Shown here: positions 52,665 through 53,570 of the stretch, piece by piece | Numbering within the stretch: the first letter of the stretch is position 1 | How the letters are laid out: each line of letters begins with the position of its first letter | NCBI GenBank assembly: GCA_004362315.1 | Contig: SNWL01000003.1 | Coordinates: forward strand, 1,054,001-1,118,000 | DNA: 64,000 nucleotides | Reading direction: 5' to 3' | Origin: Mycobacterium sp. BK086 | GTDB taxonomy: Bacteria > Actinomycetota > Actinomycetes > Mycobacteriales > Mycobacteriaceae | The notes under the pieces: generated by a model | What the model was told of the DNA's origin: nothing | Database searches by the model: none | The model's input: the letters and a program-made list of their open reading frames with translations, nothing else | Program-made: the position numbers and the translations under genes

Positions 52665-53129
52665 TCAGCTGAGCAGACGGTTGGCGCAGGCGATGACCGC
52701 CCGCAGCGCCGACTGGGTCGGATCCTCCGACCAGCCCATCGCCCATTCCCGGCGCTGGCCGTCGCTGCCTTGGACGAACGTCGCGGTGTGCGCACCGGAC
52801 GTCAGCTGGTGAAAACCGGTCATCTCCACGCCGATCCCGCGCTCGTAGAGCATTGCGGTCAGCGCGGCGACAGGACCGCCGGCCTGGGCGGTCGCCGTCT
52901 CGATGCGATCGCCGACGGCCAGGGTCGCGCGGAACCGGCGGGGGGCCGGACTGAGCCGAGACGCGTCGTCGCATTCCCAGGCGCCCAGGCGCACCGGGCC
53001 GCCGGTCGGCCTATAGGTCGCGGTGAACACACTCCACGGCATGGTTTCGGCGTGCTCACGCAGCCCGGCGGGCAGCGGCGTGCAGAAGTGGGGTGAGGGT
53101 TCAGAGATGGTGGTGCTGTGCGGAGCCAT
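52665..53129 (-). CDS. Free-standing LeuA allosteric (dimerisation) domain protein
   Basis: 154 aa from the ATG at 53129. From about residue 35 it matches the leucine-binding regulatory domain of 2-isopropylmalate synthase: GAWECDDASRLSPAPRRFRATLAVGDRIETATAQAGGPVAALTAMLYERGIGVEMTGFHQLTSGAHTATFVQGSDGQRREWAMGWSEDPTQSALRAVIACANRLL. The catalytic TIM barrel is absent, and the short N-terminus leaves no room for it. It lies behind a leader peptide and nested stem-loop, suggesting control by branched-chain amino acids. A role as a leucine sensor or regulator of LeuA is inference. Stops 9 bp from cyp136 (convergent). Confidence 0.8.
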   Translation of the reverse strand: MAPHSTTISEPSPHFCTPLPAGLREHAETMPWSVFTATYRPTGGPVRLGAWECDDASRLSPAPRRFRATLAVGDRIETATAQAGGPVAALTAMLYERGIGVEMTGFHQLTSGAHTATFVQGSDGQRREWAMGWSEDPTQSALRAVIACANRLLS

Positions 53130-53164
53130 GAATCGGTCTTCTCGTCGAACGGAGGCTGACCGAC

Positions 53165-53231
53165 GTCGTAGTTTCGACCCACAGCGGGGGGTCGGTCTGG
53201 ATCAGACCCCGCTGCGGGTAGCTACTACGAC
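53165..53231 (-). promoter_or_regulatory. Attenuator-like nested stem-loop
   Basis: Three concentric pairings: leader codons GTCGTAGT (53231-53224) with ACTACGAC (53172-53165); ACCCGCAGCGGGG with its near-complement ending 53177; and inner GGTCTG-ATC-CAGACC. The outer arm overlaps the valine codons of the leader peptide, so a ribosome stalled there would open it. No long U run follows, so control may be on translation. Confidence 0.65.
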
Positions 53232-53246
53232 AAGCGCACGATGCAC
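53202..53246 (-). CDS. Leader peptide, 14 aa, Val-rich
   Basis: GTG-started frame encoding MHRALVVVATRSGV and ending in TGA. TAACAT (53254-53259) lies seven bases upstream, so the transcript is probably leaderless. Three consecutive Val codons include two GTA, uncommon here, flanked by CTT and GCT, also rare in this GC-rich genome. The LVVV run recalls the ilvBNC leader of Corynebacterium glutamicum, which works by attenuation. The stop lies inside the stem-loop. It precedes the LeuA-domain gene by 72 bp. Confidence 0.65.
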   Translation of the reverse strand: MHRALVVVATRSGV

Positions 53247-53253
53247 GGACGCG

Positions 53254-53259
53254 ATGTTA
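53254..53259 (-). promoter_or_regulatory. -10 box of the leader transcript
   Basis: TAACAT on the minus strand, seven bases before the leader-peptide GTG at 53246. Confidence 0.5.
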
Positions 53260-53288
53260 GACCTCGGCGAGCAAACGATGCAACCGAG

Positions 53289-53570
<282 letters not shown>

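Follow-up and report, generated by a model that had tools for sequence, protein, structure and literature searches.

Among the closest described systems is the LEU element, reported in 2005 upstream of leuA in Actinobacteria, in which a leader peptide with a run of leucine codons is combined with a pseudoknot and with a base stem that joins the codon run to the Shine-Dalgarno box (PMC1262725, in the part of its text available). The leaders of ilvB carry LVV codons and act by attenuation in C. glutamicum (ilvBNC) and in M. tuberculosis (ilvB1NC), and are thus a close precedent for attenuation at valine codons; transcription of ilvBNC is placed one nucleotide from the leader start codon, and GUA is named as the regulatory codon of ilvB1NC (PMC13236596 and PMC11857589, both in the excerpts at hand). 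Cysteine-rich leaderless sORFs of mycobacteria, in which codons for one amino acid precede a gene, have been proposed to form an attenuator (PMC4633059, available portion). A search of the open-access literature found no paper describing a free regulatory domain of LeuA, the present element, or the pairing of the two. What is new here is a valine-type, LEU-like leader on a free regulatory domain of LeuA; the LEU element itself and the valine attenuators of ilvB are known.

The locus was found in a window of 64,000 nucleotides (the whole stretch of DNA analysed) from the genome of Mycobacterium sp. BK086, which comprises 6.93 Mb in 11 contigs. Its parts are collected in Table 1. The initial annotation had described a TAACAT box followed by a 14-codon frame with three valine codons, two of them GTA, and both are indeed present; read from the GTG at 53246, the leader codons in the window sequence are GTG CAT CGT GCG CTT GTC GTA GTA GCT ACC CGC AGC GGG GTC TGA. 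An exact stem on the codon run, closing a nested structure of 67 nt, had also been claimed and is there as well: GTCGTAGT at 53231-53224 is exactly complementary to ACTACGAC at 53172-53165 of the minus strand, with a span of 67 nt, and the conservation check described below found it to covary within the genus. Folding of the stretch from the GTG to the gene start gave -59.7 kcal/mol (z -5.58), a value equalled by none of 200 shuffles. Rfam placed no family at gathering score in the window, and the four matches near the leader are sub-threshold and chance-like. The Shine-Dalgarno-like stretch before the gene is weak.

Table 1. Parts of the leader and gene, in window coordinates
Feature	Position	Strand	Basis or remark
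-35-like box TTGCAT	53278..53283	-	18 nt before the -10 box; absent from the initial annotation
-10 box TAACAT	53254..53259	-	Sequence; 7 nt before the leader GTG
Leader frame MHRALVVVATRSGV, 14 codons and TGA, putatively leaderless	53202..53246	-	Sequence
Valine codon run GTC GTA GTA	53223..53231	-	Inside the leader frame
Base stem, 5' strand GTCGTAGT	53224..53231	-	Predicted fold
Base stem, 3' strand ACTACGAC	53165..53172	-	Predicted fold; pairing counts
Hairpin P1, 5' strand CCCGCAGCGGGG	53207..53218	-	Core-pair count
Hairpin P1, 3' strand	53177..53189	-	Predicted fold; core-pair count
Pseudoknot P2, loop strand GACCGAC	53191..53197	-	Helix counts against shuffles
Shared strand GTCGGTC, partner of the P2 loop strand or of P3	53158..53164	-	Fold; helix counts
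P3, 3' strand GACCGAT, directly before the start codon of the gene	53132..53138	-	Predicted fold; helix counts
Gene for the 154-aa protein (predicted LeuA linker subdomain II and regulatory domain, without barrel)	52665..53129	-	

The upstream neighbours of the leader vary between relatives; in the window a CsoR-like metal-sensitive repressor (PF02583, 85.2 bits; 53289-53558, minus strand) ends just upstream of the promoter boxes of the leader. A convergent P450 ORF (51078-52655, plus strand) adjoins the 154-aa gene on its other side, and a convergent P450 recurs as the next ORF downstream of the free-domain gene at 67 of the 78 named loci. The P450, with neighbouring regulator, SDR and DinB-like ORFs, may resemble the cyp136 region of M. 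tuberculosis. The neighbours in the 78 named loci include no conserved operon partner for the 154-aa gene, which is a separate unit.

The 154-aa protein matches the C-terminal ends of the NCBIfam LeuA models, and as a single protein it scores 22.7 bits against Pfam LeuA_dimer (PF08502), below the curated cut-off of 24.9. An hhalign comparison with nine LeuA C-terminal regions, in which both alignments are shallow, gave 93.3% probability and an E of 2.8e-7 over 121 columns, which begin at the W..F...Y motif in linker subdomain II and extend to the end. A phmmer search with the single protein returned no PDB chain at E 1; the family profile placed M. tuberculosis LeuA (1sr9, 3fig) first, at an E of about 0.57. 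No catalytic barrel fits, because the open frame is only 178 codons from stop to stop. The same genome encodes the catalytic enzyme in a leuA gene of its own (at G000:C2). The gene is thus predicted to encode linker subdomain II and the regulatory domain of LeuA, with no barrel; the initial annotation, which spoke of the allosteric domain without the barrel, was right as to both and had left out subdomain II.

Roles in leucine binding or feedback are assigned in LeuA to G531, G533, L535, A536, V551, Y554, A565 and A567 (PMC2704214, in the part available). Mapped by the profile and hhalign alignments, G533 and A536 are kept, G531, L535, V551, Y554 and A567 have become A, V, M, F and T, respectively, and A565 falls in a gap. 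The pocket is recognisable but changed, and a free sensor of leucine, as first supposed, is therefore not assured; what holds of that supposition is that the regulatory region of LeuA stands by itself.

Among named proteins the closest matches come from Mycobacterium and Mycolicibacterium, at up to 90% identity. Of 396 genomes of the same genus, 346 have the free domain at an E of at most 1e-8; among the 361 high-quality ones the number is 327. A profile search at E 1e-6 found it in 268 of 301 genomes drawn from the family and in 27 of 31 genera, the latter an upper figure, since LeuA itself can approach about 1e-7 and genus g5 rests on a match at 6e-7 alone. For five close pairs dN/dS was 0.125, 0.129, 0.133, 0.189 and 0.154, and 47 columns are invariant among 18 proteins; the gene is under purifying selection. 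Among the genomes of the genus that lack the free domain, three of the four whose LeuA was read (G029, G064 and G105; loci L175, L177 and L179) have an insert of tandem 19-aa repeats in the LeuA regulatory domain, resembling the VNTR described for leuA of M. tuberculosis (PMC2704214, available part). This insert may reflect shared ancestry only.

Conservation of the leader was followed in a set of 121: the window, 101 leaders of the same genus, and one leader from each of 19 other genera. These were drawn from 130 ortholog loci, of which eight duplicates, L153 (a 36-residue match) and L155 (no recognisable leader ending) were left out, giving 120 and the window; as relatives are not independent, the counts of leaders and pairings overstate the number of events. 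L155, from genus g3, has a free-domain homolog and an upstream frame MQTNILKRVAKATNPGGGRQD after TACAGT, with no recognisable RSGV ending. By a simple pattern, a leader frame ending in GV is present in 76 of 80 named relatives, and the four that miss it (L078, L080, L081 and L100) carry the element nonetheless. A TANNNT box stands 6-9 nt before the leader start codon in 106 of the 121, against 10 matches in all at seven shifted offsets (about 826 trials). TTG stands 15-20 nt above the box in all 106 of these, in 103 of them at 17 or 18, a count made without a control. The start codon of the boxed leaders is GTG in 81, ATG in 24 and TTG in one, and leader length, counted from the first boxed start, is 12-25 codons. 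These promoter-like boxes suggest that transcription would start at or next to the GTG at 53246 and that the leader would be leaderless.

Counted back from the stop, with the final GV left out, at least two valine codons are found in 113 of the 121 leaders. GTA makes up 223 of the 261 leader valine codons, as against 5 of 286 in ten ORFs of the window; codon rarity and stem pairing are not separable as causes of this excess, as GTA also forms part of the stem. The C-terminal end of the peptide, RSGV, is highly conserved; three leaders (L165, L167 and L172) have a stop codon that comes sooner and lies within the hairpin.

With G-U pairs counted, the nine-pair core of hairpin P1 is complete in 117 of the 121 leaders and lacks one pair in the other four, and the sequence of loop and hairpin is nearly fixed. 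At least seven Watson-Crick pairs can join the loop to the 60 nt after P1 (pseudoknot P2) in 109 of the 121 leaders, where shuffles give about 6.7; the helix is nearly always GACCGAC with GTCGGTC. Outside the genus 9 of 19 leaders reach seven Watson-Crick pairs and 16 of 19 with G-U pairs (L158 by a different helix), the downstream end being cut at the motif for the G-U count and left uncut for the Watson-Crick count that was set against shuffles. The base stem between the codon run and the spacer has at least seven Watson-Crick pairs in 63 of 121 (shuffles about 2.9), and in 3 of the 19 from other genera. Paired changes are seen in the base stem, from GTCGTAGT:ACTACGAC in the window to GTAGTAGC:GCTACTAC in L062, GTAGCAAC:GTTGCTAC in L084 and CGTAGTTCA:TGAACTACG in L154, and likewise in P2, from GACCGAC:GTCGGTC in the window to GGACTGGC:GCCAGTCC in L170 and GACCGGC:GCCGGTC in leuA leaders. 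The stem on the valine codons thus covaries within the genus and is short in most other genera; P2 is better conserved. Base stem, P1 and P2 all exceed the level of the shuffles.

The strand GTCGGTC has a second partner. With a GACC-type strand that precedes the start codon it can form P3, of at least seven pairs (G-U allowed), in 76 of 121 leaders against about 26 in shuffles, and in 3 of 19 outside the genus; the energies of the two helices are nearly equal, -10.8 kcal/mol for P2 and -11.1 for P3. RNAalifold, applied to alignment A2, returned the P1 hairpin alone. Pseudoknot-free folding with a 26-nt ribosome mask in four states did not reproduce a switch: in all four GTCGGTC pairs with the start-codon block at a mean probability of 0.77-0.84 (102 of 121 leaders usable). 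No U-run was seen after P1 or P3 on reading the window sequence. We have high confidence that the conserved structure and the leader peptide are real.

The leuA leader of BK086 encodes MQRVLLLGRRDGV, the leucine-run form, followed by the same GGGGTCTGATCCAGAC, an ending in GV and stop, and a hairpin and pseudoknot of the same plan. Model R1, built from the valine-type leader only and without leuA leaders, finds this leuA leader as its second-best match in its own genome (55.9 bits, E 8e-13). Apart from it there is no strong candidate for a further copy there; the other matches are the opposite strand of the leader itself and weak places (E 0.006 to 7.9). Of these nine, seven were followed as loci, and the six lying outside leader and leuA precede neither a free domain nor leuA nor leuB. 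Of 30 leuA leaders, 22 were usable (five failed cutting and three mis-cut ones were left out; 21 are in alignment A3), and these have a run of three leucine codons in 21 and of two in the remaining one. Class-wide, R1 has a match in 114 of 296 genomes at E 0.01. The 51 distinct places inspected comprise 24 before a free domain, 17 before leuA-like genes, four before leuB, and the six weak ones of the BK086 genome with no such gene. R1 has matches in 34 of 39 genomes in which the free domain was not found, and of the 29 element places looked at in such genomes 28 are before leuA and one is on a short contig with no gene match. Since the elements of domain-less genomes stand before leuA (28 of 29 places), the valine-type leader goes with the free domain, and at none of the 29 places was it found where that gene is missing. 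The valine-type leader is thus a paralogue of the leuA LEU element, related to it by common descent. The feature is real, old, and conserved well beyond the genome of BK086.

Two further groups of elements came to light in these searches. In Actinomycetes outside the order, LEU-like leaders with runs containing valine or isoleucine (MRSILVVVCRGEA, MRSVFVLIDCRGEA, MRSVFVLIDRRGGA and MRHIFVLRCRGGAS in L248, L251, L257 and L260, respectively) lie upstream of leuB, near base 200 of the oriented locus. In L241, L244, L245, L247 and L259 a further element stands before a second leuA-like gene, with a leucine-rich leader that ends in GA and stop.

The gene may have been met before under another name. 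One of the genomes compared, G092, is presumably that of a close relative, M. chelonae; its catalytic leuA is at 0.32 Mb and its free domain at 3.47 Mb, 145 kb from ilvB and on the same strand as ilvB. In the M. abscessus numbering MAB_3323c (ilvB) and MAB_3424c are 101 numbers apart. From the gene positions in G092 and the MAB numbering, MAB_3424c is probably the free-domain gene misnamed leuA, and the ribosome-protected uORF reported upstream of "MAB_3424c (leuA)" in the available part of PMC4974804 is then probably the leader described here. The statement in the initial annotation that no system of this kind had been described was accordingly too strong, the leader being a paralogue of the LEU element (PMC1262725) and its uORF probably figuring in PMC4974804, as far as the excerpts of both papers extend.

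On balance we lean toward a valine-type, LEU-like attenuator that would control the start of translation of the free LeuA regulatory-domain protein. The layout of the element, how far it is conserved and the alternative pairings open to GTCGGTC are observed; each regulatory step is inferred, and the steps would run as follows. The leucine codons of an ancestral leuA-type leader would have become valine codons, mostly the rare GTA, and a 70S ribosome would begin directly on a transcript starting at or next to GTG 53246. When charged valyl-tRNA is scarce, the ribosome would stall on GTA GTA and occupy the 5' strand of the base stem; with the spacer then free, GACCGAC in the loop would capture GTCGGTC in the pseudoknot, the hairpin at the start codon would be barred, and expression would be on. 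With ample valine the ribosome would reach the UGA in the hairpin loop and cover GACCGAC, so that GTCGGTC would pair with GACCGAT by the start codon and expression would be off; with no ribosome the base stem, P1 and P3 would form, which would also give the off state. The net outcome would be expression under valine shortage. The base stem and P1 together would make a long rod whose far loop could hardly reach its foot, and for that reason the base stem and the pseudoknot are expected to be mutually exclusive. Attenuation in the manner of ilvBNC, as initially proposed, fits as regards the leader peptide and the stem on the valine codons; control at the start of translation fits better, because a pseudoknot and a hairpin lie near the start codon and no U-run was seen.

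Valine stalling might instead be supposed to act on transcription, by intrinsic or Rho-dependent termination, as in ilvB1NC. This we regard as unlikely, although M. tuberculosis ilvB1 and C. glutamicum ilvBNC, with their LVV codons, work in that manner (PMC13236596, PMC11857589, available parts): the window has no U-run after P1 or P3, an argument that bears on intrinsic termination and leaves room for the Rho-dependent type, and the competing strand sits directly before the start codon. A dedicated RNA-binding protein that reads the element, with the leader frame incidental or merely opening the RNA, is a little less likely again. Such a protein was proposed for the LEU element of leuA, with orthologs of ML1624 named, and experiments in S. 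coelicolor that altered codons of the leuA leader are recounted as inconsistent with classical attenuation (both in the available text of PMC1262725); the near-fixed loop and hairpin sequence would suit it too. On the other hand, the codon run tracks its target, being leucine for leuA, valine for the free domain and valine- or isoleucine-containing for leuB, and the start codon keeps to its spacing from the boxes, and a binding protein has no reason to need either feature.

That the 14-residue peptide is itself the acting product is most improbable, for its highly conserved RSGV end overlaps the conserved hairpin, its length varies from 12 to 25 codons, and an earlier stop inside the hairpin is found in L165, L167 and L172. 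Least credible of all, to the point of being negligible, is a decayed leuA fragment with a leftover leader. Leader and domain are both leuA-like, and origin from a leuA copy is most likely, but dN/dS ratios of 0.125-0.189 in five pairs, the presence of one ortholog in each of 346 genomes among the 396 of the genus and 47 invariant columns in 18 proteins contradict decay; this candidate was rejected, and the initial annotation, which had named a ratio near 1 as the mark of a decayed copy, was right to treat the gene as a functional one.

If a valine-responsive attenuator does control the free domain, the question is what the protein would do. Action in trans on LeuA is a tentative suggestion, and the weakest part of the explanation. 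2-Ketoisovalerate is the direct precursor of valine. It is consumed by LeuA (PMC2704214, in the part available), and a brake on LeuA made at valine shortage would spare it. A fuller and more doubtful version is that a barrel-less copy of leuA, its attenuator re-aimed from leucine to valine and its pocket changed, became a subunit induced by valine starvation that joins LeuA and throttles it, 2-ketoisovalerate then going to valine and pantothenate instead of leucine. The protein may instead buffer leucine, activate LeuA rather than slow it, or act on some other enzyme.

Were the fuller version true, a trans-acting regulatory subunit under attenuator control would be present across most genera of the family. 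Were the leader to work as outlined, the LEU element would be a family of RNA switches with a codon run that can be re-aimed (leucine for leuA, valine for the free domain, valine or isoleucine included for leuB), and the natural swaps of the run could settle the 20-year-old question of ribosome stalling at LEU elements. The findings would also point to a widely conserved, unstudied regulator at the branch point of valine and leucine, and to cases in which a protein annotated automatically as "LeuA" may in fact lack the active site.

The protein is like the C-terminal regulatory domain of LeuA (PDB 1sr9) in aligning with it from subdomain II to the end, and unlike LeuA in having no barrel and in the partly changed residues of the pocket. 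With the cysteine-rich sORFs, as far as the available account of them goes, the leader shares a short frame with codons for one amino acid placed before a gene, with valine codons where those have cysteine; those frames are leaderless, as the present one would be. Canestrari 2020 is reportedly a follow-up on these sORFs. The ilvB attenuators, within the excerpts at hand, are alike in having a leader with LVV codons and, in M. tuberculosis, GUA as the regulatory codon; they have a terminator with a U-tract, whereas the present element has a pseudoknot in that position and showed no U-tract. Comparison with the LEU element draws on the available text of PMC1262725 and on the leuA leaders extracted here. 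On that footing the two have in common a leader peptide, a GC-rich hairpin whose loop contains the stop codon, a pseudoknot from the loop to a downstream strand, and pairing of the codon run. They differ in that the run here is of valine rather than leucine codons, in that its pairing partner is the spacer preceding the pseudoknot strand instead of the Shine-Dalgarno box, and in that the target is a free regulatory domain in place of leuA.
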